From Rhodococcus sp. ABRD24 (GTDB taxonomy: Bacteria; Actinomycetota; Actinomycetes; Mycobacteriales; Mycobacteriaceae), in the NCBI RefSeq assembly GCF_004328705.1, contig NZ_CP035319.1, forward strand, positions 4,588,001-4,652,000: a DNA stretch of 64,000 nucleotides. The letters run 5' to 3'. Positions 5,154 to 60,932 of the stretch are shown here, piece after piece (position 1 is the first letter of the stretch; each line of letters begins with the position of its first letter). Below the pieces are notes generated by a model, which searched no databases, was not told the origin of the DNA, and was given only the letters and a program-made list of their open reading frames with translations. Made by a program: the position numbers and the translations under genes.

Positions 5154-5222
5154 TCTCGCTGCAGACCCTGCCGAACCGCTGTGGTCGGAGGCGGCGCTCG
5201 CGCGGTGGAAAACGGTGTTGCG

Positions 5223-6435: not shown

Positions 6436-6438
6436 TGG

Positions 6439-6930: not shown

Positions 6931-7130
6931 CTGCTCTTCCTATCGCATCGCGTCCCGTTGACGGTCAGCAAGTACGACAGAATATTTGAGACTTCGTCGG
7001 ATCGCCGGACGAGTTCGGTCCTGCGGAATGTTGCTTGTGCGCAAATGGCGCCGACTGAACCCCACCCGAGACGGAGGCCGTTGAGCGTGTCGTCGTCTAG
7101 AGTCGATGTCATCGACTGGAGACTTCTCGT

Positions 7131-7631: not shown

Positions 7632-8125
7632 CAGGCCTGAGCGGGAGTCGCGCTCCCGAACCAGCGAGTCCAGCTGCCAACAATCGTTCACCGCGATCAC
7701 CGGCCCAGCACCGGCCGCACGACACCCTGTGGATCGCCGTGGTGGCTCTGTTGCCCTTGTAAGAGCCCGTGGAACGAGGGTTCCTAATTGATTCCTACGC
7801 GGGCCCGAAGCCCGTGCAGCCGGGCCCTCCGCGCTGGTGGGTGTGACGCTCATGGGTTCCTGGTGGCCGCTCTTGCGGGACGCCTTCACGCAGAGAACGG
7901 CGCGGCTCACCCGGCGTAGAGGGTTTCGGTGGTGTCCTGCTCGTGGTGCGAGCCGGCCGCAGGGATCAACCTCTCGCATGGTGTTCACGAGCTGCGAGCT
8001 CTTCGATAGATCGAGGCCCCTGCGGTGTGCTGGCGTCACGACACGACTGATGAGATGACGGACCATCATCGCTGCTGAGTCCTGCAATTAGGGCGTCGTG
8101 TGACTCCACTTCGGTTCGACCGACC
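7632..8125. other. Non-coding stretch ahead of the IS110 remnant, probable left end of the element
   Basis: About 490 bases without a convincing gene. IS110 elements keep a long non-coding left end before the transposase that encodes a guide (bridge or seek) RNA. This segment has several self-complementary patches, for example around GGGCCCGAAGCCCG near 7800. The element boundary is not identifiable by eye. Confidence 0.3.
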
Positions 8126-9384
8126 GTGTTCCTCGACATACAGGGAGTGCAGGTGGACAGATTCTGTGGGATCGACTGGGCCGACGACCATCACGACATC
8201 GCCGTCATCGACGACACCGGCACCGTCCTGGTGAAAGAATGGGTGAGCAACGACGCCGACGGGTTTGCCCGCCAACTCGAGGTCCTCGCCGACGTCGGCG
8301 ACCGCCCGGAGGATCCGATTCCGGTCGCGATCGAAACCGACCGTGGTTTGTGGGTTGCGACTCTGCGGGCGAGCGGGCGGGTGGTGTATGCGATCAACCC
8401 GCTGTCTGCCTCGCGGTATCGCAGTCAGCGCACCGTGTCCGGAGCGAAATCGGATGCCGCGGACGCAGTGATGCTCGCCAACATTCTGCGCATAGATCGC
8501 TCGTCACACCGGCCCATCCCGTGCGACACCGACCTGGCTCGCTCGATCAAGGTCCTCGCCGTGCGCAACAGGACGCCGTGTGGGCACGCACTGCGCTCGG
8601 TAACCAGATCCGATCGCTGCTCAAGGACTACTTCCCGGCAGCACTGACTGCGTTCGACGGACTCAGCGGTGGCGGCATCACGCGCGCAGATGCCCGCACG
8701 GTTCTTGCCTCAGCACCGACGCCTGAATCCGCAGCAGGGCTGACCCCAGCACGGTTGCGTTCGTTGCTGAGGAAAGCTGGCCGGCAACGAAATGTCGACG
8801 CAGACGCAGCCCGGATCCGGAAGGCTCTTCGCACCGAGCAGCTGCATCAACCCAAGTTGGTGGAGCGCGCGATGGGCATCCAGCTGTAAACGCTCGTGCA
8901 GCGTCTCGATGCAGCCTGCGACGCGGTCGCGACGCTGACTGTGGCGACAACTGAGCACTTCGAGCGGCATCCGGACGCGATGATCATCAACAGCTTCCCC
9001 GGACTCGCCGCGGTCAGTGGCGCCCGGCTGCTCGCCGAGATCGGTGACGACCGTATACGATTCGCCGACGCACGCGGGTTGAAAGCGTATGCCGGCGCTT
9101 CACCCGTCACCCGAGCCAGCGGGAAGAGAACCGTTGTGATGCACCGGCAGATCAAGAACAACCGCCTGGCCTCTGTCGGATCGTTTTGGACCCTCGTCGC
9201 GATCCAGAACTCGCCCGGCGCACGAGCACACTTCGACCGCAGACGGGCTGCCGGTGACTGGAGCCGCCAAGCCCAACGCCACTTGTTCGGAAAACTCCTC
9301 GGCCAGCTCCATACCTGCCTACGAACACGGCAGGTCTACGACGAGCTACGCGCGTTCCCCGGTGCTCCATCGTTGGCCGCTTGA
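8126..9384 (+). pseudogene. IS110-family transposase, inactivated by a 1-base deletion and a nonsense codon
   Basis: The N-terminal DEDD RuvC-like domain starts FCGIDWADDHHDIAVID and continues through VSGAKSDAADAVMLANILR. Around 8560 one base is missing (GCC GTG CGC where GCC CGT GCG is expected); the next frame then continues AQQDAVWARTALGNQIRSLL. That frame hits TAA at 8887-8889, reading as CAA mutated to TAA in GIQL(Q)TLVQRL. It carries on through the C-terminal Tnp20 domain (FPGLAAVSGARLLAEIGDD) to 9384. Both lesions are simple point changes, so decay is recent. The start is uncertain: GTG at 8126 or 8153. Confidence 0.85.
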
Positions 9385-9419
9385 CGGTTACGGCAAGAAG
9401 CCCCCGCTAGATTGTCGGA

Positions 9420-10022
9420 ATGCGTGAGTCGGAGCCGAAACCTGCAGGTGAAGTGACGCGAAATAAGCCGCCTGGTCCGCGTCTCCTGATGATCACCGTC
9501 TTCGCACTGCTCGTGCTGGTCTGCATCAATTACGACTGGTGGCCGTCACGGTTCGGCAATAGGCAGTGGGCGGACCCACTCCTTTTCGGTGGAGTTGCAT
9601 TGCTGATACTCGCAGTGGCGGGGCTGGTCTGGGCGATCCGCACGCTCTACGTCGTGGGGCAGGACCGTCGATGGTCGTGGTGGATCCTGCCTGCCCCGCT
9701 CGCCGTGGTCGGCGTGCTGGCGATCGGCCTACTGCTGCCTCCGCCGGACTTCGACGCGATGCGTCCCCAGTTCGAGCAGACGGCAAAGGACTTGCTTGCC
9801 AGCACAGAACGCATTCGCGCGAATGTGGAGATCGGTCCGTTCGACATCATCTCTGTGAGGAAGGATCCAGGCGGTGCTGTCTTCTTCACCGAAGCTCCAA
9901 TACTCGCGAGCAGCACCATTAGTGGGTGGGTCTATTCCCCGGCGGGGAATCCCGCGGGCTTCGACGACTTCTCGTCAACCCACATTGGTGGACCTTGGTA
10001 CGAGTTCACCGCCGTGTGGTGA
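9420..10022 (+). CDS. Three-helix membrane protein of unknown function
   Basis: A 200-residue protein with transmembrane segments near residues 23-37 (LMITVFALLVLVCI), 51-72 (PLLFGGVALLILAVAG) and 85-104 (WILPAPLAVVGVLAIGLLL). A roughly 90-residue extracytoplasmic domain follows (PPDFDAMRPQFEQTAKDLL onward). It lies just after the dead IS110 and ahead of a short hairpin. No family is recognised. Confidence 0.6.
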   Translation: MRESEPKPAGEVTRNKPPGPRLLMITVFALLVLVCINYDWWPSRFGNRQWADPLLFGGVALLILAVAGLVWAIRTLYVVGQDRRWSWWILPAPLAVVGVLAIGLLLPPPDFDAMRPQFEQTAKDLLASTERIRANVEIGPFDIISVRKDPGGAVFFTEAPILASSTISGWVYSPAGNPAGFDDFSSTHIGGPWYEFTAVW

Positions 10023-10052
10023 ACCTGATGGCCCCATCGAGCGAGCTACTGC

Positions 10053-10071
10053 AGACGCTCCGCTTGCGTCT
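10053..10071 (+). terminator. Short hairpin after the membrane-protein gene
   Basis: AGACGC and GCGTCT form a 6-bp stem around a 7-base loop, followed by TAACTAACT. It is placed as a terminator for the upstream gene but is weak. Confidence 0.4.
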
Positions 10072-10255
10072 TAACTAACTGAGATGTCTGTGTGTGCTGT
10101 CGACCCCAGGAGCGTTCGAACACCGGCCCCGTGATCTCGGTGTGGGTCGACGAGGGAAGCGTCGACCCACACCGTTTCGCGTCGCAATCAAGGCCGCTTT
10201 CTGCCCGCCATAGGCGATCCGGCTGTACAAGCAGTCCAGCTGGCAGACTTTCTTT

Positions 10256-10705
10256 ATGGAACGTCGCCATCACACGGACAGTGAGTCCAGTCGACAGACG
10301 TACAACGCCGACGCCAACCTTGACGACGAGGAGCCGACCCAACGGCATGGCAACTTCGCCCAGGCCGACTGGGATATGCGCTTCTTATCTGCACTGACAC
10401 GCCAGCTTTCGGCACGGCCTTGGGATACCGGCGTCTACGAGATCGAGCGGCTGGACTGGGCAGATTCGATCATGACGTTGGTTGTCCGTGTCTGGGGTCG
10501 CGACCGTTCGGGGCTGGTCGGTTGGCGTGAGCATCTGCCGACGGTGCGCTCGGGATTCACGCCCGATGATCCCGAGCGAGTCGCTGGCGCATGGCACACA
10601 GGTGAGTTCTACCCCTGCTACCTGCCGGATCCTTATCTACCCGATGAGAACGGCATTCACTGGATCGGACGAGGTCGACCATCTCATCCCGACAATCTTC
10701 GTTGA
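10256..10705 (+). CDS. Hypothetical protein
   Basis: A 149-residue soluble protein. The first 30 residues are polar and low in order (MERRHHTDSESSRQTY); the body is Trp/Asp-rich (WDTGVYEIERLDWADSI, YLPDPYLPDENGIHW). No strong ribosome site precedes the ATG, and a later start at 10376 (MRFLSALTRQL) is possible. It ends just before the convergent IS110 remnant. Function unknown. Confidence 0.45.
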   Translation: MERRHHTDSESSRQTYNADANLDDEEPTQRHGNFAQADWDMRFLSALTRQLSARPWDTGVYEIERLDWADSIMTLVVRVWGRDRSGLVGWREHLPTVRSGFTPDDPERVAGAWHTGEFYPCYLPDPYLPDENGIHWIGRGRPSHPDNLR

Positions 10706-10737
10706 AGCAGTCGTGATGGACGTATCGCGGCTGCAGA

Positions 10738-11589
10738 TCATGCGGTTAGCGGCACATCAAGACGCTCGCGAAAGTCGTGAAGCATGGTGCGCCAGAGGCG
10801 TTTCGCGACTTGCCGTTTGAGGCACCGCATCGCCTCTCGTGAAGTCTTCCCTTCGGCCATCTTGCGCTGGTGGTAGGCGTATCCGTCGCTGCTGGGTGTC
10901 CTAGCTTGGGTGACGGCGACGATGTGGATCGCCGAGTTCAGGGTGCGGTCACCGGACCTGGACAGTCGATGGCGCTGCTTGTCGGCGCTGGCGACCTCGA
11001 TCGGCGCCGTGCCGCTGTAGTTCGCGAACGCCGCCTCGTTCACGAACCTGGTGGGATCGCCGGTGCGGGCGAGGATCCGGGCTGCGGTGACGATGCTGAC
11101 GCCCGGGATCTTCAGCAGCTTGGTGCCGCTGGCAGCGAGATCGGTCTTGATTCGGGCGGTGATGTCCTCGATCTGGAACCGGGCCCGCCGCAGGTCCCCG
11201 ACAATGTCGAGGGCCACGTTCTTGCGCATCGCATCCGCAGTCGTCTCCGGCGAGAACGCTTTGAGCTGACCGGCGGCGTCCTCGGTGTCGAAGTCCCGTT
11301 CCATGCCTCCGGGGAACAGCTCGCGCAGCAGGGCGTGGAGCTGGTTGACGAGCCGGCCGTTCTGTTTGACCAGGTCGACCCGGTGTTCGTCGAGAATCCG
11401 CAGGACGTCGGTGTGGCCTTCCGGGGCGACCGGCCGGAAATCGCGCGCCGGCCACCACTGGAGAGTTCCCGCACTCGCGCTGTCGCGGTCGACGGGATAT
11501 CGACGACCGCTTCGCCGCGGCCGATCAGCCACTGCGTGAGGTGATGACCGAGTCCAGAAGCGTTCTCCACCGCCCAGCGCGGAGCGATC
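10738..11589 (-). pseudogene. IS110-family transposase remnant, truncated and internally deleted
   Basis: On the minus strand the N-terminal piece reads RWAVENASGLGHHLTQWLIG and stops making sense after ARVRELSSGGR. A second frame resumes at PVAPEGHTDVLRILDEHRV and continues through the Tnp20 domain (LLKIPGVSIVTAARILARTG) to the stop at 10738. The join lacks the Lys-Thr-Asp segment with the third acidic residue, so some tens of bases are deleted. The true N-terminus is absent; foreign sequence begins at about 11590. It is distinct from the IS110 copy at 8126. Confidence 0.8.
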
Positions 11590-11760
11590 GGCGGAGCGCA
11601 GTGGTGAACCCGGTGCCGACGTGCCCGATGTACTTCAAGACCCCGCCGTCGTCTTACGCGCCGAGCAACAGGGATCCGACTCCGTAGCGTGCGGTGCCGC
11701 TGCCGTCGACCCACTGGAGTTCGGGTGGGTTCGTTCGGGCGCACTTGCGCTGGGTGCCGC
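11590..11760 (-). pseudogene. Fragment of an ATP-dependent DNA ligase (C-terminal OB-domain region)
   Basis: Reading leftward, one frame gives LQWVDGSGTARYGVGSLLL, then GA, a TAA stop, and DDGGVLKYIGHVGTGFTTA. This is the pattern of the LigC/LigD-type ligase C-terminal domain, where GSLLLG-YDD and YIGHVGTGFT are hallmark segments; the stop replaces the expected Tyr. The fragment joins directly to the IS110 remnant. No other ligase part is visible in the window. Confidence 0.6.
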
Positions 11761-11830
11761 ATTGCCTGAGCTCAGACCGCTTCTCCCGTGCGAATCGGAA
11801 GAACCGAAAGTTCGTGATAACTCTCGAATT

Positions 11831-12443
11831 ATGCGAGTTGTTGCCACGAAGTACCGACTCGTGGCGGGTTTCCGAACCCGCCGTGCGATGAAGCTCGCCG
11901 AAGCCGCCGCTTCGCTTGGCATCGCAACCGAATTGGCTGACGTGGCGACTCTGCAGCGGCGGATCACGGAATCAGCCGATCCGATCGACGAGACGGCCTT
12001 CTTTCACGAGACGATCGCTGAGTACGGGTGGGCCCGTGACGTTGCGGGGCTGGCCCCATCCACCTTGCAGACACTCCTCAAGCCTGTTCTCGAGTTGTGC
12101 GACAATTTCGACTGCGTCCCTTGGAGACTCACTTCGCGACAGTTCGACCAGTATTTCGCCGGTCCCGGCAAACGCCATCACTCGACCCAACCATCGGGGC
12201 GACTTCACCTTGCGCATACCGCTCTCGAAGCGGGCCATGACTGAGTTTCGCGCCGCCTGGCGGGATGACCTACCGCGCTCGCGTAAGTACCCCATCGCGG
12301 TGCGTGACTACGCGATGGCGAAGGTCGCCTGCATCTCTGGTGTCCGGGCGAAAGAACTGTGCGCGGTGCGGATCGGGGACGCGCACTGGGATCGCGGGCA
12401 GTGGGGGCGGTTCATCGTCACCGGAAAGGGTGCGCGCGGTTCC
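11831..12443 (+). pseudogene. Tyrosine recombinase (phage-type integrase) remnant
   Basis: One frame starting MRVVATKYRLVAG carries the N-terminal core-binding part and ends RQFDQYFAGPGKRHHSTQ. Another picks up at about 12185 with RGDFTLRIPLSKRAMTEF and DYAMAKVACISGVRAKELCA, where the catalytic Arg region (SGVRAKELC) lies, and then IVTGKGARGSG. The gap implies a deletion between the two parts, and the C-terminal half with the HxxR and Tyr motifs is missing, cut off by IS3 sequence. Confidence 0.75.
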
Positions 12444-12669
12444 GGGTCGCGCGAGCGAGGACCCGGCGCTCGGCACCGTCGAGCGGCTGATCACCCTGCG
12501 CAGCCGCGGCCTCGACGCGACGGCGTTCGTCTGCGACCCAGCGCCCGAGCAGCTTCTCGTTCAACCCGAGCTCGCGGGCGACCTCGGCGATCGTGCGGCC
12601 CGAATCGATCACCCGATGAGAGGCCTCGACCTTGTACTCGGTCGTGAATGACCTGCGGGTACGTGACAT
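12418..12669 (-). pseudogene. IS3-family OrfA fragment
   Basis: From ATG at 12669 leftward: MSRTRRSFTTEYKVEASHRV, then a helix-turn-helix TIAEVARELGLNEKLLGRWV, ending in AERRVLARATRN where homology should continue into the leucine-zipper region. OrfB is absent. TGTGAGGTTCCCC, ending near 12739, looks like the element's left terminal repeat (TG...). The fragment is fused head-on into the tyrosine recombinase remnant at about 12435. Confidence 0.7.
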
Positions 12670-12879
12670 GCGAACATCCTTCCAGCGAGATCTCCTATCC
12701 CCGCTATCTCGGTCTCCGCTGCCCGAGGGGAACCTCACATTACGAGATGCGGGCCGAGGGCCTAGCCCGGCCCGACTGTTGTACCCAGTCGGAAACAGCG
12801 TCGGGTGGGGCGCACATCATCCGGCATCAGGCAGGCTGGGTTTGGGTCTGCGGTTCAGTCGGTCGAGATCGGCCGCCGG

Positions 12880-13761
12880 TCATTTGCGCTTCGCGTCGTC
12901 GTGATTGCGGACGAAAGTCATGAGTCGGGGAATCACCTGATTGGGGATGTGTCCGAGGATTCCGTGGCCAGTGCCGGCGAAAATCTCGACTTCCGCTGCA
13001 GGTAGAAGATCAGCCAGTCGCGCTGCCACCCGCTCGGGATTGGAGACCACCGTCTCGGCGCCGTAGATCACCAGCATCGGAACCGTGATCGACTGCACTT
13101 CTGCATCCTTGAGCATTCGAGCCCATCCAATCCCAGGGCGGTAGTTCAGGGCTTCTTTGGCGAGGGTGAACTCGAGGTCGCCGAGGACGTACCCCGGAGA
13201 CAGCCAATCGTTGAGCTTGCGGATACTTTCGTCGGTGCGGCGCATCCCGGCCCGGATCATCTTCAGCAGCACACCCCACGATGGCTTGTCGAAGACTCCT
13301 CCCGGCTCGATGAGCGTCACACTCGCCACTCGTTCAGGAGAATGGAGTGCTACGAGAACGGCGTGCCATGCACCCTGCGAGTAGCCGACCAGGTGGACAC
13401 GGTCGACCCCGAGTTTGTTCAATACCTCGTCGACCCAGGTGGCGAAGTCGGATTCTCCGGTGATCGGGGCGGTCTGGACGCTGCGCCCCGGAGTGCCGAT
13501 CGTGTCCAGTGCGTACACGACGCGGTCTCGGCACAGATCCTCGATGACGATGTGCCATTGCAGACAGTTAGCCCCGAGAGAGTGCACCAGGACGATCGGC
13601 GTCTCCGTGCCGGACCCCGACTTACGGACATGGGTGGTTCCGAACGATGTTGGGATGTCCAACTGTGTCGACGGAACCGGCCATGTGCCTTCCAATGCCT
13701 GGTAGACGCGGTCGTATGACAGCTTCGATGCGTCGTTCTTGAATCGTCCGATCTTCGGCAT
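12880..13761 (-). CDS. Alpha/beta hydrolase
   Basis: A 293-residue hydrolase. An oxyanion-side loop HSLGANCLQWH is followed by VYALDTIGTPGRS, the nucleophile elbow VGYSQGAW (Ser in GYSQG), a lid region around residues 165-215, the acid-side segment MLVIYGAETVV and the catalytic His in GTGHGILGHIP. The ATG at 13761 has GAGGGAGG upstream. It is divergent from a TetR gene with tandem operators in the 107-bp gap, so it is the likely target of that repressor. The substrate is unknown; an ester or lactone is plausible. Confidence 0.88.
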   Translation of the reverse strand: MPKIGRFKNDASKLSYDRVYQALEGTWPVPSTQLDIPTSFGTTHVRKSGSGTETPIVLVHSLGANCLQWHIVIEDLCRDRVVYALDTIGTPGRSVQTAPITGESDFATWVDEVLNKLGVDRVHLVGYSQGAWHAVLVALHSPERVASVTLIEPGGVFDKPSWGVLLKMIRAGMRRTDESIRKLNDWLSPGYVLGDLEFTLAKEALNYRPGIGWARMLKDAEVQSITVPMLVIYGAETVVSNPERVAARLADLLPAAEVEIFAGTGHGILGHIPNQVIPRLMTFVRNHDDAKRK

Positions 13762-46027: not shown

Positions 46028-47506
46028 GTGTCTGACTCCACCGCCGTGAAGTACCCCGTGACCACGCGTGCGTTCGGCCTCGCGATCATCGTCCTCAGCG
46101 GCATGCAGCTGATGATGGTGCTCGACGGAACCGTCGCCTCGCTCGCGCTCGCCAAGATTCAGGAAGACCTGGGGCTCAGTGATTCCGGGCGCAACTGGGT
46201 GATCACGTCGTATGCCCTCACCTACGGTGGCCTGATGCTGCTGGGCGGCAGACTGGGCGACTCGTTCGGGCGTAAGCGCGTCTTCACCGGCGGCGTGGCG
46301 CTCTTCACGATCACGTCGTTGCTGTGCGGGTTGGCGGTCAACGAGGCCACGCTCGTGGTGGCCCGGGCGTTACAGGGTGTGGGCGCGGCGATCGCCTCAC
46401 CGACCGCGCTCGCGCTCGTTGCGACCACATTCGCGCCCGGTCCGGTGCGGAACCAGGCCGTGGCGATCTTCGCGGCCATGACGGGTGTCGGCTCGGTGGC
46501 CGGTCTGATCATCGGTGGCGCACTCACCGAGTTGTCGTGGCGGTGGATCTTCCTGATCAACGTGCCGATCGGCCTGGTGATCCTGGTGTTCGCATTCCGC
46601 GCACTCGAGGAGACCGGAGCCGAGCGGCTCAAGCTGGACGTGCCTGGAGCCATCCTCGCAACCCTGGGCTGTGCCGCCGTCGTATTCGGTTTCACCGAGG
46701 GCCCGGAGATGGGTTGGGGCAGCCCCCTCGTGCTCGCAGGGTTGATCGGCGGGTTGGCACTGCTGGGCGCGTTCCTCGCGGTCGAGCGCCGCGCTGAGAA
46801 CCCGCTACTGCCGTTTTCGCTGTTCCGCAATCGCAGCCGGGTCGCGACGTTCATCGCCCTCGCCCTCGTCGGCATGGTGATGTTCTCGCTGGCGCCGTTC
46901 GTCGCGCTGTTCGTTCAGGACATCCTCGGCTACACGCCGTTGCGCGCGGGCCTCGCTTTCGTGCCGTTCGCGTTCGGCCTCGGTGCCGCGGCCTTCGTCG
47001 CCTCCAAGCTCGCGGTGAAGGTCCAGGCCCGGTGGCTCGTCGTGACAGGCATGGTCATCACCTTTGTCGGCCTGCTGTACGGCTCCACGCTCGACGCTTC
47101 CGCGACGTACGTCGGGAACCTGTTCCTGCTCGTAGTCGGTGTCGGCTTCGGTGTCGGCCTCGCCGTGGTGCCGCTGCCGCTGTGTGCGATCGCCGGCGTC
47201 GGGCCGCACGAGATAGGTCCGCTGGCCGCGATCGCGCAGGTGGCACAGACGCTGTTCGGGCCGGTGGGGCTCGCGATCGTCGGTGCGATGGCCACGTCGA
47301 AGACGCTGTCGCTCGGCGGAATCTCGGGCGTGGCCAAGGACATGACGCCGGACCAGTTGTCCGCGCTCAGCGAGGGCTACATGTTCGCTCTCCTGGGTTG
47401 CGCGATCTTCGCGCTCCTGGCGGCGCTGACCGCGCTGTTCATCCGGTTCTCGCCCGGGCAGGTGGCACAGGCCCAGGCCGCGGAGAAGGCGGCGCAGGAG
47501 GCATAG
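46028..47506 (+). CDS. DHA2-family MFS drug exporter
   Basis: A 492-residue transporter with about 14 spans. Motif A reads LLGGRLGDSFGRKRVF, motif C-like AAMTGVGSVAGLIIGGAL, and DGTVASLALAKIQEDLGL is the typical first-helix region of EmrB/QacA-type proteins. The GTG is 12 bp after the cobA stop, so it may be read through from the cobalamin operon. A drug or metabolite efflux role is inferred from family only. Confidence 0.88.
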   Translation: MSDSTAVKYPVTTRAFGLAIIVLSGMQLMMVLDGTVASLALAKIQEDLGLSDSGRNWVITSYALTYGGLMLLGGRLGDSFGRKRVFTGGVALFTITSLLCGLAVNEATLVVARALQGVGAAIASPTALALVATTFAPGPVRNQAVAIFAAMTGVGSVAGLIIGGALTELSWRWIFLINVPIGLVILVFAFRALEETGAERLKLDVPGAILATLGCAAVVFGFTEGPEMGWGSPLVLAGLIGGLALLGAFLAVERRAENPLLPFSLFRNRSRVATFIALALVGMVMFSLAPFVALFVQDILGYTPLRAGLAFVPFAFGLGAAAFVASKLAVKVQARWLVVTGMVITFVGLLYGSTLDASATYVGNLFLLVVGVGFGVGLAVVPLPLCAIAGVGPHEIGPLAAIAQVAQTLFGPVGLAIVGAMATSKTLSLGGISGVAKDMTPDQLSALSEGYMFALLGCAIFALLAALTALFIRFSPGQVAQAQAAEKAAQEA

Positions 47507-47523
47507 GTGGTGCCGCGCCCGAA

Positions 47524-48960
47524 ATGTCCTGGCTGAACGATCAGCTGGGCCGTAACGTGCACTCGGTGCTGCTCACACTGACTGCTACCGCCACAGACGA
47601 AGTCCCGGACGCCTCGGACCTCGGCTACCTGCTGCACAAGCATCCGGATCGGGTGCAGACGTTCGAGTTGTCCGTCGGCACCGCGACCGTGCTCTATCCG
47701 GAGTCGACTCGTGCGCGGTGTACTGCGGCGCTACTCCTCGACGTCGATCCCATCGAACTCGCGCGCAGCAAGTTCCGCCGCGGCAGTGACGGATTCGCAC
47801 TCGGCCAGTATGTGAACGATCGGCCGTATGCCGGGTCGTCGATGCTGGCGGTCGCCCTGTCTCGGGTGTTCAAGTCGGCGTTGGCCGGCGTCTGCAAGAC
47901 ACATCCGGACCTTGTCGACGTCGCGATGCCACTGCAAATCAAGATCCCGGCGATGCCGGCCCGCGGCGGCGCAGATCTCCCCGGCCGACTCTTCGGCCCG
48001 CTCGGCTGGGACGTGACTGCGGTCCCGCTGCCCCTCGACGAGACCATTCCGCAGTGGGGTGACGCGGATTACGTGCGCCTCGAGCTGTCGGGAACCACAA
48101 CACTGTCGGCGGCGCTGCGTCACCTGTACGTGCTGCTTCCGGTGCTCGACGATGTCAAGCACTACTGGGTGGGCGAGGAAGAGGTGGACAAGCTGGTGCG
48201 GATGGCCGGTGAATGGCTGGCCGGCCATCCCGAGACCGGGCTGATCGCGTCGCGGTACCTGGCACACCGTCGGGAACTGGTGTCGTCGGTAGTCGATCGA
48301 TTGACCGACGATCCTGTAGACCAAAATGCCGATGCGCCCACGCCCGACACGAGCCTCGCGCAACTACGCCAGGATGCGGTGCTGACGACCCTGGAGAAGC
48401 TGGGTGCGGCACGAGTGGTGGATCTGGGCTGCGGGGAAGGTCGATTGCTGGGAGCCATGTTGGCCCGGCCCTCGTTCACCAGGATCGTCGGCGTCGATGT
48501 CAGCGACAGCGCACTCCGCAGGGCCGAGCGCAGGCTCGGCGTCGACGAGCTGCCGGACGGTCAGCGGGACCGTGTCGCGGTGTTGCAGTCCTCGGCCACC
48601 TACCGCGACGCGCGGCTTCGTGGCTTCGACGCGGTGGTGCTGATGGAGGTCGTCGAGCACGTCGACGAGTCGCGCCTGCCCGCCCTCGTGCAGTCGGTCT
48701 TCGGTGACATGCGGCCGCGGGTGGTACTGGTGACGACGCCCAACGCGGAGTACAACGCGCTCTACCCGAACCTCGGGGCGGGCGCATTCCGACATCCGGA
48801 TCACCGTTTCGAATACACCCGAACACAATTCGAGATCTGGGCGGCGGGCCTCGCAGTAACACATGGCTACGACGTGAGTTTCTCCGGGATCGGCGAGCTC
48901 GACGAGACCCACGGCACGCCCACCCAGATGGCTGTTTTCACCCGAAAGGAGGACACGTAG
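47524..48960 (+). CDS. hen1: Hen1-type RNA 3'-terminal 2'-O-methyltransferase
   Basis: As annotated 478 residues; bacterial Hen1 proteins usually start close to LLTLTATA, so GTG at 47566 (464 residues) may be the true start. The N-terminal half (DLGYLLHKHPDRVQTFELSV) is the bacterial Hen1 N-domain that cooperates with Pnkp. The C-terminal methyltransferase has VVDLGCGEGRLLGAML for SAM and the metal-binding EVVEHVDESRL, then FRHPDHRFEYTR. It abuts pnkp (TAG then ATG), forming the RNA repair cassette that methylates the 2'-OH at a cleaved end before sealing. Confidence 0.94.
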   Translation: MSWLNDQLGRNVHSVLLTLTATATDEVPDASDLGYLLHKHPDRVQTFELSVGTATVLYPESTRARCTAALLLDVDPIELARSKFRRGSDGFALGQYVNDRPYAGSSMLAVALSRVFKSALAGVCKTHPDLVDVAMPLQIKIPAMPARGGADLPGRLFGPLGWDVTAVPLPLDETIPQWGDADYVRLELSGTTTLSAALRHLYVLLPVLDDVKHYWVGEEEVDKLVRMAGEWLAGHPETGLIASRYLAHRRELVSSVVDRLTDDPVDQNADAPTPDTSLAQLRQDAVLTTLEKLGAARVVDLGCGEGRLLGAMLARPSFTRIVGVDVSDSALRRAERRLGVDELPDGQRDRVAVLQSSATYRDARLRGFDAVVLMEVVEHVDESRLPALVQSVFGDMRPRVVLVTTPNAEYNALYPNLGAGAFRHPDHRFEYTRTQFEIWAAGLAVTHGYDVSFSGIGELDETHGTPTQMAVFTRKEDT

Positions 48961-51489
48961 ATGAGTGTCGTCGAGATTCCCGAACCGTCCTTGGTCGTGC
49001 TCGTCGGGATCAGCGGATCCGGCAAGTCTTCCTTCGCTGCTCAGCATTTCGGCTCCTATGAGGTGATCTCGAGCGATCACTGCCGGGGGCTCGTCAGTGA
49101 CGACCCGAACGCGCAGGCCGCGACGGCCGACGCATTCGAAGTACTCGAGTTCATCGCGGCCAAGCGACTACGGGCGGGAAGGCTGACCGTCGTCGACGCC
49201 ACCAGCGTCCAGCCGGCGGCACGGAAGAAGCTGATCGATCTCGCCCGCAGCCACGATGCGCTTCCTGTGGCGATCGTCCTGGACATTCCGGAGCCGGTGT
49301 GTGCCGAGCGCAACGCGGCCCGCGGCGACCGCGCTTTCGATCGCGCCGTGCTGCGCCGTCAGCACCAGCAACTGAGCCGTTCGATGCGCGGGCTCTCCCG
49401 GGAGGGGTTCCGGGCTGTGCACGTGCTGGACGGCGTCGACGCCGTCGAGTCGGCTCGGATTGTCCGGCAGCCTCTGCGTAGCGATCGGCGCGACCTGACC
49501 GGACCCTTCGACGTGATCGGTGACATCCACGGGTGCCTCAGTGAGCTCGAAACACTGCTGGGCATAATGGGATACACCGTGCTTCGCGATGAGCTGGGTC
49601 GGGCGGTGGACGCGGTTCCGCCAGCCGGTCGGACCGCGGTCTTCGTGGGCGACTACGTCGACCGGGGGCCCGACTCGCCCGGTGTGCTCCGATTGGTGAT
49701 GGGGATGGTCGCCGCTGGCCACGCCCTCGGCGTTCCTGGAAACCACGAGAACAAACTGGTCAAGGCGCTGCGCGGCAAGAAGGTCAGTGTCACGCACGGT
49801 CTCGGGTACACCCTCGAGCAGCTGGCCGGTGAGTCCGAGGATTTTCGCAGACAGGTCGCGGACTTCTGCGACGGACTCGTCGCGCACCTCGTCCTCGACG
49901 GGGGACGGCTGGTCGTCGCACACGCCGGGCTCAAGGAGGAATACCACAACCGCGCGTCGGGTCGGGTGCGCAGCTTCGCGCTGTACGGCGAGACCACTGG
50001 GGAGACAGACGAGTTCGGTTTTCCCGTGCGCTATCCCTGGGCTGAGGACTACCGGGGTGAGGCCATTGTGCTGTACGGGCACACACCCGTGCCCGACGTG
50101 CGCTGGATCAACCGCACCGCTTGCCTCGACACCGGGTGCGTCTTCGGCGGCGCGCTCACCGCAATGCGATACCCGGAACGCGAGGTGGTGTCGGTGCCCG
50201 CCGAGCGGCAGTGGTATCGACCGGTCAAGCCTCTGCACCAGCCCGCGTCGGATCCGCAGGCCCTCGACATCGACGACATTCTTCGGGTGGGGGGAGTGGA
50301 GACTTCGACTCGCGGGCGGATCTCGGTTCGTCCGGAAAACGCGGCGGGCGCACTCGAGGTGATGAGTCGCTACGCGGTTGATCCGCGATGGCTCAACTAT
50401 CTTCCGCCGACGATGTCGCCGTGCGCGACCTCGGCACTCCCGGGACTTCTCGAGCATCCTGCCGAAGCCTTCGATGCCTATCGAAAGGCGAAGGTGGACG
50501 AGGTGATCTGTGAAGAGAAGCATATGGGTTCGCGCGCTGTGGTGTTGGTGTGCCGCGACGCGGCCGTGGCTGCAGAGCGCTTCGGTGTCGGTGACGGGCT
50601 CTCGGGGATGGTGCACACCCGGACCGGCCGGCGCATGTTCGGGGATACGCTGACCGAGTTGTTGGTCGCCAACGTCGCGGATGCGGTCGGGGCGGCTGGG
50701 CTGTGGGACGAACTCGGCACTGACTGGGTGCTGCTCGACACCGAACTGCTGCCCTGGTCGGCGAAGTCGGAGGCGCTGCTGCGATCGCAATACGCGGCCG
50801 TCGGTGCGGCGGCGTCCGCGGACTTGTCCGCGCGCACGGCGGTGCTCGATGCTGCGTCCGGGCGGGGGCTCGACGTCGGTGTGTTGTTGGCGGGGAACAG
50901 GTCCCGAGCCGACGACGTCGAGAGCTACATCGAGGCGTACCGGAGATACGTGTGGCCGACGGAAGGGCTCGTCGGGGTGCGGCTCGCGCCGTTCCAGGTG
51001 CTGGCGACCGAGGGGGTGAGCTATGGTGACCGCGACCACGGTTGGCACCTCGAGGTTGCGGATCGACTCGCGGACGTTGCGCCGACGCTGTTCACGACGA
51101 CGCGGCGAGTGCTCGTGGACACGAGGGTGCCCGAGTCGGAGGCGTCGGGCGTCGCATGGTGGGAGGAGCTGACCGGGGCAGGCGGCGAGGGAATGGTGGT
51201 CAAGCCGTTCCATAACCACCGCGGTGGCGGACGAGTGCAGCTGGGAATCAAGGTACGTGGACGTGAGTACCTGCGGCTGATCTACGGTCCGCACTACACC
51301 GAGCCGGAGAACCTGGCCCGGTTGCGGAACCGGAGTCTGGGCCACAAGCAGTCGATGGCGCTGCGCGAGCACGCGCTCGGGATGGAGGCGATCGACCGGC
51401 TGATCAAGGTGGAGCCGCTGTGGAGGATCCACCAGGCCGTGTTCGCTGTCCTCGCGCTCGAGTCGGAGCCGGTGGACCCGCGGTTGTAG
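48961..51489 (+). CDS. pnkp: Polynucleotide kinase-phosphatase-ligase, RNA repair
   Basis: An 842-residue three-domain enzyme. The 5'-kinase has P-loop GISGSGKSS at residues 16-24. The binuclear metallophosphatase spans about 180-430 with FDVIGDIHGCL, VGDYVDRGPDS and GNHENK. The C-terminal adenylyltransferase ligase has the nucleophile in CEEKHMGSR (Lys520) and GMVVKPF. It needs Hen1 for efficient sealing, and hen1 lies directly upstream. The pair repairs RNAs (classically tRNAs) cut by ribotoxins; no toxin gene is seen nearby. Confidence 0.95.
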   Translation: MSVVEIPEPSLVVLVGISGSGKSSFAAQHFGSYEVISSDHCRGLVSDDPNAQAATADAFEVLEFIAAKRLRAGRLTVVDATSVQPAARKKLIDLARSHDALPVAIVLDIPEPVCAERNAARGDRAFDRAVLRRQHQQLSRSMRGLSREGFRAVHVLDGVDAVESARIVRQPLRSDRRDLTGPFDVIGDIHGCLSELETLLGIMGYTVLRDELGRAVDAVPPAGRTAVFVGDYVDRGPDSPGVLRLVMGMVAAGHALGVPGNHENKLVKALRGKKVSVTHGLGYTLEQLAGESEDFRRQVADFCDGLVAHLVLDGGRLVVAHAGLKEEYHNRASGRVRSFALYGETTGETDEFGFPVRYPWAEDYRGEAIVLYGHTPVPDVRWINRTACLDTGCVFGGALTAMRYPEREVVSVPAERQWYRPVKPLHQPASDPQALDIDDILRVGGVETSTRGRISVRPENAAGALEVMSRYAVDPRWLNYLPPTMSPCATSALPGLLEHPAEAFDAYRKAKVDEVICEEKHMGSRAVVLVCRDAAVAAERFGVGDGLSGMVHTRTGRRMFGDTLTELLVANVADAVGAAGLWDELGTDWVLLDTELLPWSAKSEALLRSQYAAVGAAASADLSARTAVLDAASGRGLDVGVLLAGNRSRADDVESYIEAYRRYVWPTEGLVGVRLAPFQVLATEGVSYGDRDHGWHLEVADRLADVAPTLFTTTRRVLVDTRVPESEASGVAWWEELTGAGGEGMVVKPFHNHRGGGRVQLGIKVRGREYLRLIYGPHYTEPENLARLRNRSLGHKQSMALREHALGMEAIDRLIKVEPLWRIHQAVFAVLALESEPVDPRL

Positions 51490-52326: not shown

Positions 52327-52360
52327 GTCTGGCCTCCGCTGCAAAGAGCGAAGGCCAGAC
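52327..52360 (-). terminator. Hairpin after the two-repeat secreted protein
   Basis: GTCTGGCCTTCGCT pairs with AGCGGAGGCCAGAC with one mismatch on the minus strand. It lies 32 bp past the stop of the gene ending at 52392 and before yaaA, separating the two transcripts. Confidence 0.7.
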
Positions 52361-52391: not shown

Positions 52392-53312
52392 CTACCCGGC
52401 GTCGAATTGTAGGCCGGCGACGTTCCGGATCTCGGAAGCGTCGACGACCACTCCGGCAGCGGGCGCCGCGAAGGTGATCGGTGTCGTGGTGTCCTGGCTA
52501 CGGTCGGCGGAGCCGTGAGCCATGACGGTGTAGATCGAGCACGCGTTGGCGAGGCAGTCCGCGCCGCCCTGGACGGCCTTGATGTTGAGGGTGGTGCTCC
52601 ATGCGCCGCCGGAGATGGCGCTGGGCCGGACGAAGGTTTGTGCGCCCCAGGCAGTTGCGTCGGTGGGGGACCACTTGTTGTCCTGGATGACGCCGACGTA
52701 GAGGCCGGTGCTTGCGGCGGCACCTTCGAATCCGGTGCCGGAGATGGTGATGTCCTCACCGGCGGCCGCGATGTTCGCGGTCTTGGACGCGGTCACAGCG
52801 GGCCCGGTCGGCACGACGACGGACGGCGCAAAGCTCACCGGGGTCTTGGTGTCCTGGGTGCGGTCGGGCGAGCCGTGCGCGGAGACGGTGTAGATGGAGC
52901 AGGCGTTCTCGAGGCAGTTCGAGTCGCCCTTGATCGCGGCGACGTCGATGTCGGCGGTCCATGCGCCGCTCACGATGTCGGTTGCCTCGAGCCACTTGGT
53001 CGTCATCCAGGCGGTGGAGTCGGTGGCGGAGTACTTGTCGTCCTGGACGAGACCGACGTAGATGCCGGCGCCGGCGCCGGAGAAGCCGCTGCCCGCGACG
53101 GTGATGGTCTCACCGGCGGCCGCGATGCCGGTGGCCTTCGACAGCGACACCAGTGGCGTTGCCTCTTCGGGTTCTTCCGGTCCTGGAGCGCTGGAGCCGA
53201 GGCTGCCCAGTGAGCCGAGCGGGCTGGTCTGCGCTGCTGCGACTCCCAGAGACATCGTGCAGGCGAGCGTGCCGGCGACGGCCACGATCGCGGACTTTGT
53301 GAACGCGCGCAT
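52392..53312 (-). CDS. Secreted protein with two neocarzinostatin-like repeats, iron-box controlled
   Basis: A 306-residue protein. A signal peptide (about 1-27) is followed by a short SPLGSLGSLGSS spacer and two domains of about 110 residues (54-162 and 172-282). Each has a G-I-Y-V-G-L-V-Q strand, a Trp, a close Cys pair (133/138; 253/258 in DC-x4-C form) and an AHGS-x-DR-x-QDT ending in TPVSF. The Cys spacing and ending resemble neocarzinostatin-type Ig-fold domains. There is no C-terminal anchor, so it should be released. An IdeR-like box lies 42 bp upstream. Iron or haem capture is a guess. Confidence 0.75.
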   Translation of the reverse strand: MRAFTKSAIVAVAGTLACTMSLGVAAAQTSPLGSLGSLGSSAPGPEEPEEATPLVSLSKATGIAAAGETITVAGSGFSGAGAGIYVGLVQDDKYSATDSTAWMTTKWLEATDIVSGAWTADIDVAAIKGDSNCLENACSIYTVSAHGSPDRTQDTKTPVSFAPSVVVPTGPAVTASKTANIAAAGEDITISGTGFEGAAASTGLYVGVIQDNKWSPTDATAWGAQTFVRPSAISGGAWSTTLNIKAVQGGADCLANACSIYTVMAHGSADRSQDTTTPITFAAPAAGVVVDASEIRNVAGLQFDAG

Positions 53313-53353
53313 TGTCCTTCTTTCTGAGGTGGGTCCGCCGAGATGGCGAATAC

Positions 53354-53372
53354 TTAGGTAAGGCTAGACTTA
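53354..53372. promoter_or_regulatory. IdeR/DtxR-like iron box
   Basis: TTAGGTAAGGCTAGACTTA matches the 19-bp DtxR/IdeR consensus TTAGGTTAGGCTAACCTAA at 15 positions. It lies about 42 bp upstream of the two-repeat secreted protein, where a promoter would be. Confidence 0.62.
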
Positions 53373-53456
53373 ATTTGATCTTCGGTAAAGGGGTAGAAGC
53401 ATGCGGGTCCAGAGGTGCGATGTGTCCTAAAAGACCAGTTCAGTGCATAATTCTGT

Positions 53457-53483
53457 GAGGGGCGTCCGGACCGGACGCCCCTC
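53457..53483. terminator. Long perfect hairpin after the four-repeat protein
   Basis: GAGGGGCGTCCGG and CCGGACGCCCCTC form a 13-bp perfect inverted repeat around a single A. It is 20 bp beyond the stop of the minus-strand gene ending at 53504. Confidence 0.85.
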
Positions 53484-53503
53484 GGGCTAGGTGGCAGGCA
53501 GTG

Positions 53504-55576
53504 CTAGGTTCGGCGGCGTAGTGCGAAGGTTGCCGCTACTGCGATTCCGGCTCCGACGACTCCGCCGATGAGCAGCGGAAGGATCCACGCGGTGACGTCG
53601 GTCAACGCGTCGGCAAGATTGCGGATCGCAGGGGAAGCGGCGTTCGCGTCGTCCGACGAGGCGTTGCCGTCACCGTTCGAGCCGCCGTCGGCCGCCGTCA
53701 GTGCTGCTGATGCAGCCTTGTCGGCATTGGGTGCGTTGGGGTCGTCACCGAAGCTGACGGGCGTCTGGGTGTCCTGGCTGCGGTCGCTCGAACCGTGCGC
53801 TGCGATCGTGTAGATCGAGCACGGATTCTTGGTGCAGTCCGAGTCGCCCTTGACGGCCTGCACCTTCATGGTGGTCGACCATGCGCCGTTCTTGATCCCG
53901 CTCGGCGTGATGAACGCCGTGGTCATCCAAGCGCCGGCATCGGTGGTGGTGAACTTGTTCTCCTGGATCAGTCCGACGTAGATGCCGGGAGGTGCACCTG
54001 AGAATCCGGTGCCCGCGATCGTGATCTGGTCGCCTTCGATCTTCAGGCCCTTGGCCTTCGAGAGTGTAACGGCCGCAGTCTTTGCGATGCCGGGACCGCC
54101 GGCGGCATTCAGCACGGGCGGGGCGGTGACGGTGCCCGGTGCGACGCTGCCGACGAAGCTCACCGGGGTCTTGGTGTCCTGGCTGCGGTCCGAAGAACCG
54201 TGGGCCATGACGGTGTAGATCGAACACGCATTCTTGATGCAGTCGAAGGCACCCTGGTTCGCGATCAGTTCCACGGGCAGTGACCAATGACCACCGGAGA
54301 TCTGCTCCGGCTTGATGAATGCCGAAGTCATCCACACAGAGGCGTCGGCTGCGGAGAACACGTTGTCCTGAACGAGGCCGACGTAGAGGCCAGGCGCGGC
54401 GCCGGAGAAGCCGGAACCGGAGACAGTGACCGTCTCACCGGACGGGTTGATGCCGCTCGCCTTCGACAGCGACACCGCCAGGTTGCTGTTGGCCGTGAAC
54501 GTGGTGCCGGGAGCCGCGCCGGCCGCGCCGGGACCGGTTGTGGCTCCGCCCGCGCTGGTCTCGCCGCCACCGGTGAGCGGTGGCGCGGTGCCGACGAAGC
54601 TGATCGGGGTCTTGGTGTCCTGGCTGCGGTCGCTCGAGCCGTGTGCTGCGAGCGTGTAGAGGGCGCAAGTGTTGTTGATGCAGTCGCCGCCGGGAAACGC
54701 GCCAAGGACGTCGATCTTGGTCGAGAAGGAACCGCCCGGCATGTCGGACGGCTTGATGTACTTCGTACCGTAGAAAGCCGAGGCGTCGGTCGACGAGTAC
54801 CGGTTCGTCTGGGCGATACCGACATAGATGCCCATGCCTGCGGTCGAGAAACCGCTGCCGCGCACGGTGATCGAGTCCCCCGCCGCATTGAGTCCGCTGG
54901 TCTTGTCGGTGTCGACACGGGGTCCGCCGCCGGTTGTCTGAGATGTGGTCGGCGGTTTGGTGGTGGTGGTCGGCGGTTTGGTGGTGGTCGGCGTGGTGGT
55001 GGTCGGCGGTTTGGTGGTGGTCGGCGTGGTGGTGGTCGGCGTGGTGGTGGTCGGTGGAATGGTGGTGGTCGGTGCGGTGGTGGTCGGTGGTTTGGTGGTG
55101 GTGGTGGTCGGGTGCGCCGCGAATGTCACCGGGGTCTTGGTGTCCTGGGTTCGGTCCGGTGAGCCGTGCGCTGCGACGGTGTAGATCGAGCACGCATTCT
55201 CGATGCAGTCGAACGAGTCCTTGATGGCCACGACATCGACGCGGGTAGTCCAGGAGCCGCTCTTGATTTCGGCCGCCCTGATCCACGCCTGGGTAATCCA
55301 GACGCTGCCGTCAGTGGTCGAGAACTTGTCGTCCTGGACGAGGCCGACGTAGATGCCGGCGCCGGCGCCCGAGAACCCGGTGCCCGAGATGTCGATCTTG
55401 TCACCGTCCTTCAGGCCGGTCTTCTTGGACACTGTTGTGACCGGCGTACTGGAAGCGGTTTGGGTGGCGCCACTGTCACCTGAGGTATCGGGGGCGGCAA
55501 TGGCGAGGCCCATCGGCGTCGTCACTGCCATGGCGACCGCGATGGTCGCGAAAGCAGCCCTGGTCAACGCGCGCAT
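53504..55576 (-). CDS. Surface-anchored protein with four neocarzinostatin-like repeats and a Thr/Pro linker, iron-box controlled
   Basis: A 690-residue protein. A signal peptide (1-28), repeat 1 (48-153), a Thr/Pro/Lys linker (155-219), repeats 2 (220-328), 3 (367-474) and 4 (501-609), then a membrane span at about 663-685 and the tail RRRT. Repeats share GSGFSGA..G-I-Y-V-G, a Cys pair as DC-x4-C, and AHGSSDRSQDTKTP. There is no LPxTG, so it is held by the C-terminal helix with the linker reaching through the wall. Two overlapping IdeR-like boxes precede it. It is a paralogue of the 52392 protein. Function unknown. Confidence 0.75.
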   Translation of the reverse strand: MRALTRAAFATIAVAMAVTTPMGLAIAAPDTSGDSGATQTASSTPVTTVSKKTGLKDGDKIDISGTGFSGAGAGIYVGLVQDDKFSTTDGSVWITQAWIRAAEIKSGSWTTRVDVVAIKDSFDCIENACSIYTVAAHGSPDRTQDTKTPVTFAAHPTTTTTKPPTTTAPTTTIPPTTTTPTTTTPTTTKPPTTTTPTTTKPPTTTTKPPTTSQTTGGGPRVDTDKTSGLNAAGDSITVRGSGFSTAGMGIYVGIAQTNRYSSTDASAFYGTKYIKPSDMPGGSFSTKIDVLGAFPGGDCINNTCALYTLAAHGSSDRSQDTKTPISFVGTAPPLTGGGETSAGGATTGPGAAGAAPGTTFTANSNLAVSLSKASGINPSGETVTVSGSGFSGAAPGLYVGLVQDNVFSAADASVWMTSAFIKPEQISGGHWSLPVELIANQGAFDCIKNACSIYTVMAHGSSDRSQDTKTPVSFVGSVAPGTVTAPPVLNAAGGPGIAKTAAVTLSKAKGLKIEGDQITIAGTGFSGAPPGIYVGLIQENKFTTTDAGAWMTTAFITPSGIKNGAWSTTMKVQAVKGDSDCTKNPCSIYTIAAHGSSDRSQDTQTPVSFGDDPNAPNADKAASAALTAADGGSNGDGNASSDDANAASPAIRNLADALTDVTAWILPLLIGGVVGAGIAVAATFALRRRT

Positions 55577-55618
55577 CTTCCTTCTTCCTGGTTACGGCCG
55601 CAATAGCGGCACCTCTAA

Positions 55619-55652
55619 TTAGGTGAGCCTAGGGTAACTAAAGCAAACCTAA
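55619..55652. promoter_or_regulatory. Two overlapping IdeR/DtxR-like iron boxes
   Basis: TTAGGTGAGCCTAGGGTAA (55619-55637) matches the DtxR consensus at about 15 of 19 positions. GTAACTAAAGCAAACCTAA (55634-55652) has an intact right half and a weaker left half. They lie 43-76 bp upstream of the four-repeat surface protein. No other candidate target faces them except the distant proS. Confidence 0.65.
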
Positions 55653-55770
55653 GTTACCGCACCTTCGTCGAATCTGGTGTGCCCGACATTTCGGAGACCG
55701 TGCCCGTCGCCTGGAGTGCGGCTGGTCGACTCGACGTGGGGAGCCGCAGATCCCTCGCTTGCATGACGGT

Positions 55771-55875
55771 CAACCGCTGTGCCGTCGATCGGTTTCGCAA
55801 GCTCAACCGCTGTGCCCTCGATCGGTTTCGCAAGCTCAACCGCTGTGCCCTCGATCGGTTTCGCAAGCTCAACCG
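55771..55875. repeat. 33-bp direct tandem repeat, three copies plus a 6-bp partial
   Basis: Units begin CAACCGCTGTGCC, contain TCGATCGGTTTCGCAAGCT, and start at 55771, 55804 and 55837; a fourth begins at 55870 and breaks off after CAACCG. Copies 2 and 3 are identical and copy 1 differs at one base (GCCGTC versus GCCCTC). With no spacers it is not a CRISPR. The array ends 16 bp before the proS GTG. A 33-bp unit keeps all frames open, which explains the repetitive ORFs here. Confidence 0.9.
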
Positions 55876-59571: not shown

Positions 59572-60932
59572 TTGACTCATCAAAGATGCCCGCGTAGGTC
59601 CCATCGTTGACTCATCCGAGAATGCCCGCGTAGCGGCGTGTCGGTCCGGTCGATGCCGGTGGGGGCGGTAGGGCCGGGTGATGGGACTGTCTATGGCGGA
59701 ACGTAAGTCTGTGACGAGGGCGATCGCGACCCGATATGCCCGGGCCGACAGGTCGGGGAAGTCCCGGATTCTCGACGAGTTGTGCGCGACGACGGGGTGG
59801 CATCGTGATCATGCCCGCAGGATGTTGCGGTCTGCTCTGATGCCGCGGGTGGTGCGTCCGCGGGCTCCATGTCCGGTCAAGTATGGTTCGGAAGTTGTTG
59901 CAGCACTGACATTCTGTTGGGCGGTGCTCGGCATGCCGGCAGGGAAGCGTCTTGTCCCGATCCTGCCGGAGCTGGTTCCGGTGTTGCGGCGGTTCGGGGA
60001 ACTCGACATCGACGACGACACCGCGGCGTTGCTGGTGCGGATGTCGGCGGCGACCGTGGATCGGCGGCTGGCCCCGCAGCGCAAGTCGCTCGAACTCAAG
60101 GGTCGCTCGCACACGAAGCCGGGATCGCTGCTCAAGTCGCAGATACCGATCCGGACGTGGGCGCAGTGGGACGATGCGGTGCCGGGGTTCGTGGAGATCG
60201 ATCTGGTCGGTCACGAGGGCGGGAACGCGGTCGGTGAGCATGCGTACACGTTGACGGTGACCGATATCGCCACCGGGTGGACGGAGAACCGGTCGGTGCC
60301 GAACAAGGCCCTCAAGTGGGTGGTCGCGGCGCTCGACGAGATCGCCGGGGTGTTGCCGTTCCCGCTGCTCGGTGTGGACTCCGACAACGGCAGCGAGTTC
60401 ATCGACCATCATCTGCTGGCGTGGTGTGAACGGCGGGAGATCACGTTCACCCGCTCGCGGCCGGGGAACTCGAATGATGGTGCGCACGTCGAGCAGAAGA
60501 ACTGGGCCATCGTGCGTACCGTTGTCGGCTATCTTCGCTACGACACTCCTGCGGAACTTTTGTTACTCAACAAGATTTGGGTTCTGCAATCGAATATGAC
60601 GAACTTCTTCTCGCCGCAGCAGAAGCTGATCTCCAAGGTTCGGGACGGCGCGAAGGTGACCAAGAAGTACGACACCGCGACCACTCCACACCGGCGTGCG
60701 AGCGCTCACCCCGCGGTGACCGCCGACACGAAGGACGCTCTCGATGCGGCCTACGCGAGCGTCAATCCCGCGGCGGTCCAACGACAGATCCAGGCCCTTA
60801 CCGCCGAGTTGATCACCCTCGCCACCAGTAAACGAACACCGACGAAGAAGCCCGGATCCGCCACCACTCCCTCGCGGACATCCACAAATGAGGCAACGAA
60901 TCACGCTTCGCGGGCATCTTGACATGAGGCAA
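59572..60932. mobile_element. Intact insertion sequence with doubled terminal repeats
   Basis: The left end has two direct copies of TTGACTCAT...GATGCCCGCG-type sequence, at 59572 and 59607. The right end has two inverted copies: TTGCCTCATGTCAAGATGCC reads inward from 60932, and TTGCCTCATTTG...ATGTCCGCG from 60895. The element is about 1.36 kb with one transposase. No clear target duplication is seen at the junctions, so the exact borders are tentative. Confidence 0.7.
59678..60922 (+). CDS. DDE-type integrase-core transposase
   Basis: An open 414-residue transposase. An N-terminal helix-turn-helix region (ARADRSGKSRILDELCATTG) precedes the rve-type core. The catalytic acids are in VEIDLVGHEGG (Asp), LLGVDSDNGSEFIDHHL (Asp) and GNSNDGAHVEQKNWAIV (Glu). 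The Lys/Thr/Ser-rich tail is disordered. It resembles integrase-core transposases near IS481/IS3; the exact IS family is uncertain. Starts at GTG 59678, ATG 59681 or ATG 59693. Confidence 0.85.
   Translation: MMGLSMAERKSVTRAIATRYARADRSGKSRILDELCATTGWHRDHARRMLRSALMPRVVRPRAPCPVKYGSEVVAALTFCWAVLGMPAGKRLVPILPELVPVLRRFGELDIDDDTAALLVRMSAATVDRRLAPQRKSLELKGRSHTKPGSLLKSQIPIRTWAQWDDAVPGFVEIDLVGHEGGNAVGEHAYTLTVTDIATGWTENRSVPNKALKWVVAALDEIAGVLPFPLLGVDSDNGSEFIDHHLLAWCERREITFTRSRPGNSNDGAHVEQKNWAIVRTVVGYLRYDTPAELLLLNKIWVLQSNMTNFFSPQQKLISKVRDGAKVTKKYDTATTPHRRASAHPAVTADTKDALDAAYASVNPAAVQRQIQALTAELITLATSKRTPTKKPGSATTPSRTSTNEATNHASRAS

Follow-up and report, generated by a model that had tools for sequence, protein, structure and literature searches.

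A pair of adjacent genes in Rhodococcus sp. ABRD24 may bear on the question of how haem passes through the mycolic-acid envelope of actinobacteria without HtaA. The pair lies in the stretch of 64,000 nucleotides analysed here (the window; positions 4,588,001–4,652,000 of contig NZ_CP035319.1), a portion of a 5.1-Mb genome in one contig. Gene B (53504..55576, minus strand) encodes an exported protein of 690 amino acids with four neocarzinostatin-like (NCS-like) domains, a C-terminal membrane helix and an Arg tail, and its paralogue gene A (52392..53312, minus strand), downstream of B, encodes an exported protein of 306 amino acids with two NCS-like domains and no C-terminal membrane helix. We propose, with a probability of roughly 0.6, that A and B are iron-repressed envelope proteins with a part in acquiring haem. 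An iron-boxed, surface-displayed family with this fold and with ties to haem oxygenase would be a direct candidate for haem transfer across the envelope without HtaA, and would suggest what natural function is served by a fold that has mainly been described as a carrier of antibiotics.

Alignment of the six A and B domains along their full length revealed a CxxxxC cysteine pair and an AHGSxDRxQDT segment in every one, bearing out the preliminary description of this DNA as two neighbouring exported paralogues with six such domains. Motif counts were taken from 61 domains of 19 proteins, found in the window and eight related loci by a profile that was itself built from domains chosen by a pattern containing the counted motifs; an earlier set of 48 domains, selected by a motif-holding pattern, was excluded from the counts. 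CxxxxC and DR[S/T]QD were present in 61/61 of these window-type domains, the loop His in 58/61 and AHGS in 55/61. Single-domain relatives, which carry four cysteines (both Cys pairs) per domain, showed HxxxxDRSQD in 12/12 rows of their alignment (A3).

The neocarzinostatin fold anticipated in the preliminary description is supported by comparison of the AlphaFold model of A domain 1 (52827..53156, minus strand, approximately residues 53–162) with solved structures, which gave a match between the predicted structure and that fold. This match was obtained by VIA re-alignment of Foldseek candidates; Foldseek alone yielded no match below 0.001, and its top 50 included antibodies and SKICH domains. 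The same fold was predicted for the single-domain type found in haem gene clusters, and the profiles of the window type and the haem-cluster type aligned end to end with a probability of 99.5. Searches of solved structures with the B sequence (a single chance row) and with the domain profile (best match cyclodextrin glycosyltransferase, 0.0012) did not find neocarzinostatin, and B domain 4 alone retrieved ice-binding proteins, not neocarzinostatin. In comparison with the neocarzinostatin family PF00960, B scored 24.1 bits, under the cut-off of 25, and A had no match, while haem-locus relatives ranged from no match up to 61.8 bits. PF04213 (HtaA) matched neither A nor B. Separately, the domain profile matched weakly (0.044, positions 12–109) to PDB 7qhm chain M, the ThiX protein of the C. 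glutamicum supercomplex. The available text of the report on the C. glutamicum respiratory supercomplex describes the soluble domain of ThiX as unresolved (PMC8795186). The soluble part of ThiX may be an NCS-like domain.

Scoring of every window position against the palindromic DtxR/IdeR consensus TWAGGTTAGSCTAACCTWA revealed exactly two sites of at least 14/19 in 64 kb, one ahead of each gene, compared with 0.03 expected from 30 first-order Markov sequences. The box of A (53354..53372) scored 16/19 and lies 41 bp from the start codon; that of B (55619..55637) scored 15/19 at 42 bp and is overlapped by a second, weaker site (55634..55652; 13/19) at a place where relatives also have a pair. An alignment of seven loci (the window, L006–L010 and L013, with L011 and L012 not included) showed that the block of the A box is conserved amid varying flanks, and that a pair of box-like sites precedes B. 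Across the genome only two sites reached 16/19 or more, the A box and another 17 bp ahead of a Peripla_BP_2 frame, and the reversed control gave 0. Even with up to 3 mismatches allowed, the strict IdeR consensus matched no site in the window, so that the degenerate consensus was needed. A further pattern resembling the A box occurred at 3 places in the genome versus 4 with the reversed control, and was dropped as uninformative. We then scored 25 upstream regions, chosen from the window and relatives and belonging to NCS-like, HtaA, HmuT-like and haem oxygenase genes, in which divergent pairs share a box; 19 scored at least 14 and six scored 11 or less. Boxes of 15–18/19 preceded at least one NCS-like gene, or the operon containing it, in the seven haem-locus regions examined (G322, G091, G389, G294, G042, G236 and G069). 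The iron control expected from the preliminary description is thereby supported as far as the DNA sites reach, with IdeR/DtxR-type sites before both genes and conserved in relatives, and binding of a repressor at the A and B boxes is predicted.

The case for haem comes mainly from relatives. When 397 genomes of the order were searched with the domain profile, 31 proved to contain NCS-like domains (threshold 1e-4). HtaA was present in 52 of the 397 genomes, namely in 18/31 domain-bearing genomes versus 34/366 others (p 4e-10), and haem oxygenase in 152, namely in 23/31 versus 129/366 (p 3e-5); both statistics ignore relatedness. In 15/31 genomes HtaA lay within 6 kb of an NCS-like domain, and in eight of those 15 the two were 37–40 bp apart in a single frame. 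A 497-residue protein of G091 has HtaA at 41–198 followed by the NCS-like domain at 212–335. The HtaA overlaps in G074, G136 and G250 were not local. For the single-domain subclass, haem oxygenase was found within 3.6 kb in 13 of the 14 best matches, of which 10 genomes had supplied the 12 rows of A3 and so match by construction, leaving G015, G347, G131 and G228 as independent; haem oxygenase was already known at three loci (G322, G389 and G294) when the rows were chosen.

One operon (G322) encodes, in this order, haem oxygenase, an NCS-like protein that has a single domain and a C-terminal helix, Peripla_BP_2, FecCD and an ABC ATPase, and is divergent from the gene of a multi-domain NCS-like protein; HtaA was not found in this genome. 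In G389 and G294 the gene of the single-domain protein is flanked by that of haem oxygenase on one side and that of an HtaA protein on the other, and weaker NCS-like matches occur between two HtaA domains. G294 also has haem oxygenase, Peripla_BP_2 and FecCD beside its NCS and HtaA genes, and in G069 a transporter pair (Peripla_BP_2/FecCD) separates the NCS gene from the HtaA gene. The 649-residue frame at L052:10240-12189 is over-extended, and only its Peripla_BP_2 part was used. Some further arrangements were recorded. At L056 (G042), positions 4272–13393 hold a row of NCS-like genes near haem oxygenase; in one of the encoded proteins (6825–8663) an NCS-like domain is joined to S-layer homology domains, and a neighbouring protein (5542–6936) also has an S-layer homology domain. 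Six genomes of family f1 (G074, G081, G136, G250, G289 and G392) encode proteins of 364–389 amino acids with a weak, partial HtaA match (31–52 bits), and in G250 (L060) this gene is near a Peripla_BP_2 gene behind a 16/19 box.

In the window genome itself, haem oxygenase, Peripla_BP_2 and FecCD genes occur in a row preceded, at 36 bp, by a 15/19 box, and no match to HtaA (PF04213) was detected, so that this host appears to have the inner part of a route for haem uptake but not the surface module known from actinobacteria. The NCS-like surface proteins stand behind the same kind of box as this row. When iron is scarce, an IdeR-type repressor would leave the boxes and A and B would be made; B, anchored in the membrane, would display four NCS-fold domains through the envelope, and A would display or release one to three more. 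These domains would collect haem or extract it from a haem protein, handing it on to the binding-protein/FecCD transporter encoded elsewhere in the genome beside haem oxygenase, so that A and B would occupy the surface place held by HtaA-type proteins in other actinobacteria. Haem as the cargo and its hand-over to the transporter are what we infer from this arrangement. The weakest step would be direct contact of haem with the domain, for which the conserved His and the DRSQD loop would be the obvious candidate; in neocarzinostatin, the corresponding loop lies along the edge of the ligand cleft. A haem ligand, one of those suggested in the preliminary description, finds support in the genomic company of the relatives (HtaA fusion, haem oxygenase, Peripla_BP_2/FecCD), but A and B themselves do not adjoin haem genes. 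More tentatively, and at somewhat under even odds, the NCS fold could be a further Gram-positive haem-binding surface module beside CR/HtaA and NEAT, with strings of domains relaying haem across the envelope and replacing HtaA in Prescottella, and with the His/DRSQD loop at the ligand cleft.

Several observations weigh against a role in haem acquisition. The haem oxygenase of the host is about 430 kb from the A/B pair, which in the window genome and relatives sits between proS and yaaA or pnkp and has no adjoining transporter, and the multi-domain proteins of the window type belong to a different subclass from the single-domain proteins of haem loci. Among the 31 domain-bearing genomes, 13 had no HtaA and 8 no haem oxygenase; conversely, 129 of the 152 haem-oxygenase genomes had no match to the domain, which is therefore dispensable for haem use generally. 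Among 32 genomes matched by the single-domain profile, 15 weaker ones had no haem oxygenase nearby, and a single family (f15) accounts for each of the eight close HtaA fusions in counts uncorrected for relatedness. The loop His is missing from 3/61 window-type domains and is replaced by Arg in both HtaA-fusion rows inspected. No box (best 9–11/19) was found ahead of the NCS-like genes in L049, L055, L057 and L064 or of two L056 genes; L049 is from a 2.4-Mb genome, and the two L056 genes are further along a row in which a 16/19 box precedes the first NCS-like gene.

Alternatively, the domains may serve as Ig-like spacers or protein-binding modules (for example for haemoglobin or partner haem proteins) of an iron-starvation envelope and make no contact with haem, which other proteins would bind. 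The domain fused behind a full HtaA haem-binding domain in eight genomes may be a mere spacer, species differ in the number of repeats in A, from one to three, a variability common among spacers, and A exceeds the cut-off of the TIG/IPT Ig-like family PF01833 (22.4 vs 20.9 bits), in a match covering only profile positions 10–38 of 84, while B stays below it (16.1 bits). We nevertheless consider this explanation unlikely, though a serious contender, since the loop is conserved beyond the needs of a spacer (DR[S/T]QD and HxxxxDRSQD without exception in the two domain types). In addition, no HtaA was found in G322 or the window genome, in a survey that did not extend to other haem-receptor families, and this leaves the NCS-like proteins as the surface candidates seen there.

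Two other explanations concern the ligand. Since the neocarzinostatin fold holds small polycyclic ligands, and the other best box of the genome precedes a gene of the Peripla_BP_2 family, which includes ferric-siderophore carriers, the ligand of A and B could be a ferric siderophore, or some other small, aromatic chelator of iron, instead of haem. The close neighbours in relatives are haem oxygenase and HtaA, in surveys that did not look for siderophore-synthesis genes, and we regard this ligand as improbable. A function in carrying an enediyne-like antibiotic, or in self-protection against it, would account for the fold match to enediyne apoproteins and for the weak match to the enediyne antibiotic chromoprotein model NF040680, but the scores are under both curated cut-offs (24.1 of 25 bits for PF00960; 26.9 of 86 bits for NF040680). 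Enediyne chromoproteins have two intradomain disulfides, whereas window-type domains contain exactly two cysteines in 61/61 and lack the other Cys pair. The proteins are also multi-domain and iron-boxed, with one of them membrane-anchored, and their genes neighbour proS, yaaA, pnkp and hen1, which makes an antibiotic role very hard to credit.

Among described proteins, A and B differ from the enediyne apoproteins neocarzinostatin, macromomycin, C-1027 and actinoxanthin (PF00960) in being strings of domains, exported or anchored, with iron boxes and housekeeping neighbours. The HtaA/ChtA CR proteins of corynebacteria, according to the available text of PMC12494546, are iron-repressed and exported, have membrane-helix forms, are in some cases also secreted, and bind haem through a tyrosine of the CR domain. 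CR proteins (PF04213) act together with haem oxygenase and a haem transporter, and at least eight of the 397 genomes have them in fusion with an NCS-like domain, but the CR fold differs from that of A and B. The single-domain NCS-like proteins of haem loci (A3), for which no name was found, have the predicted fold and the C-terminal motif in common with A and B and, in those examined, the same kind of iron box; they differ in having one domain instead of two and four, both Cys pairs, and a gene inside the haem locus instead of a separate one. CwpG of Actinoplanes, a candidate protein of the cell wall in which InterPro places a neocarzinostatin-like domain (PMC13251363), resembles A and B as a surface protein with this domain, and the available part of that source contains no iron or haem link. 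Our literature search, with most subscription journals outside it, found no paper tying neocarzinostatin-fold proteins to haem uptake or IdeR; the single paper that mentions both neocarzinostatin and IdeR is apparently a review of phage display.

The remaining parts of the two proteins bear on how the domains would be displayed. Domain 2 of A is at 52467..52799 (minus strand, approximately residues 172–282). In B, domain 1 (55118..55444, approximately residues 45–153) is followed by a Thr/Pro-rich linker encoded by tandem repeats (54929..55111, approximately residues 156–216), domain 2 (54593..54922, approximately residues 219–328), domain 3 (54152..54481, approximately residues 366–475), domain 4 (53747..54076, approximately residues 501–610) and the C-terminal membrane helix assigned by hydropathy (53516..53608, approximately residues 657–687), all on the minus strand. 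Domain 4 has the highest cross-species mean identity (0.88), and B domain 2 and the middle domain of three-domain A proteins are the most divergent. The linker ahead of the helix is rich in Asn/Asp/Ala/Ser, and the Thr/Pro stretch separates domains 1 and 2, so that the outermost domain is spaced from the other three; the Thr/Pro stalk to the membrane that had been described was not borne out. Comparison of the ends of A at nine loci (excluding L013, which is broken by frame changes) showed three domains, a C-terminal hydrophobic stretch and an Arg tail in five (L006–L010), and no hydrophobic end in the window (two domains), L011 (one), L012 (one) and L048 (two). Release of A, as had been supposed, agrees with the window protein but fails as a general rule, the released form being seen at 4/9 loci, and a released shuttle with a tethered receptor is doubtful, since A also ends in a membrane helix at 5/9.

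The closest named loci came from Prescottella (the Rhodococcus equi/hoagii group), with proS identity up to 96.6% (P. defluvii Ca11, L007), and 11/14 genomes of the genus sample contained the NCS-like domain. Neither A nor B had a match in the PADLOC defence scan, and a search for plasmid-borne relatives of A gave no match. YaaA, noted earlier as an iron-protective neighbour, is indeed next to A, but a functional link is doubtful: a 14-bp hairpin (52327..52360, minus strand; z −3.1; no T tract; absent from the terminator scan list) lies between the genes and is the probable transcription end of A, and in G250 yaaA adjoins a third paralogue, not A. An operon of A and YaaA was considered and set aside because of this hairpin, and YaaA is probably transcribed separately. 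The third paralogue (L048, 4916–6769, plus strand) has four domains and its own 15/19 box, and A and B of that locus are beyond hen1/pnkp, on the far side from it. In the window, genes for Hen1 and Pnkp, a bacterial RNA-repair pair (47032–51489, plus strand), adjoin yaaA, and both also occur in L007 and L048. A 33-bp unit in 3.2 copies (98% matches) is located directly upstream of proS (55770–55875), and a transposase-like protein with an rve integrase core domain is encoded at 59678–60922 (plus strand).

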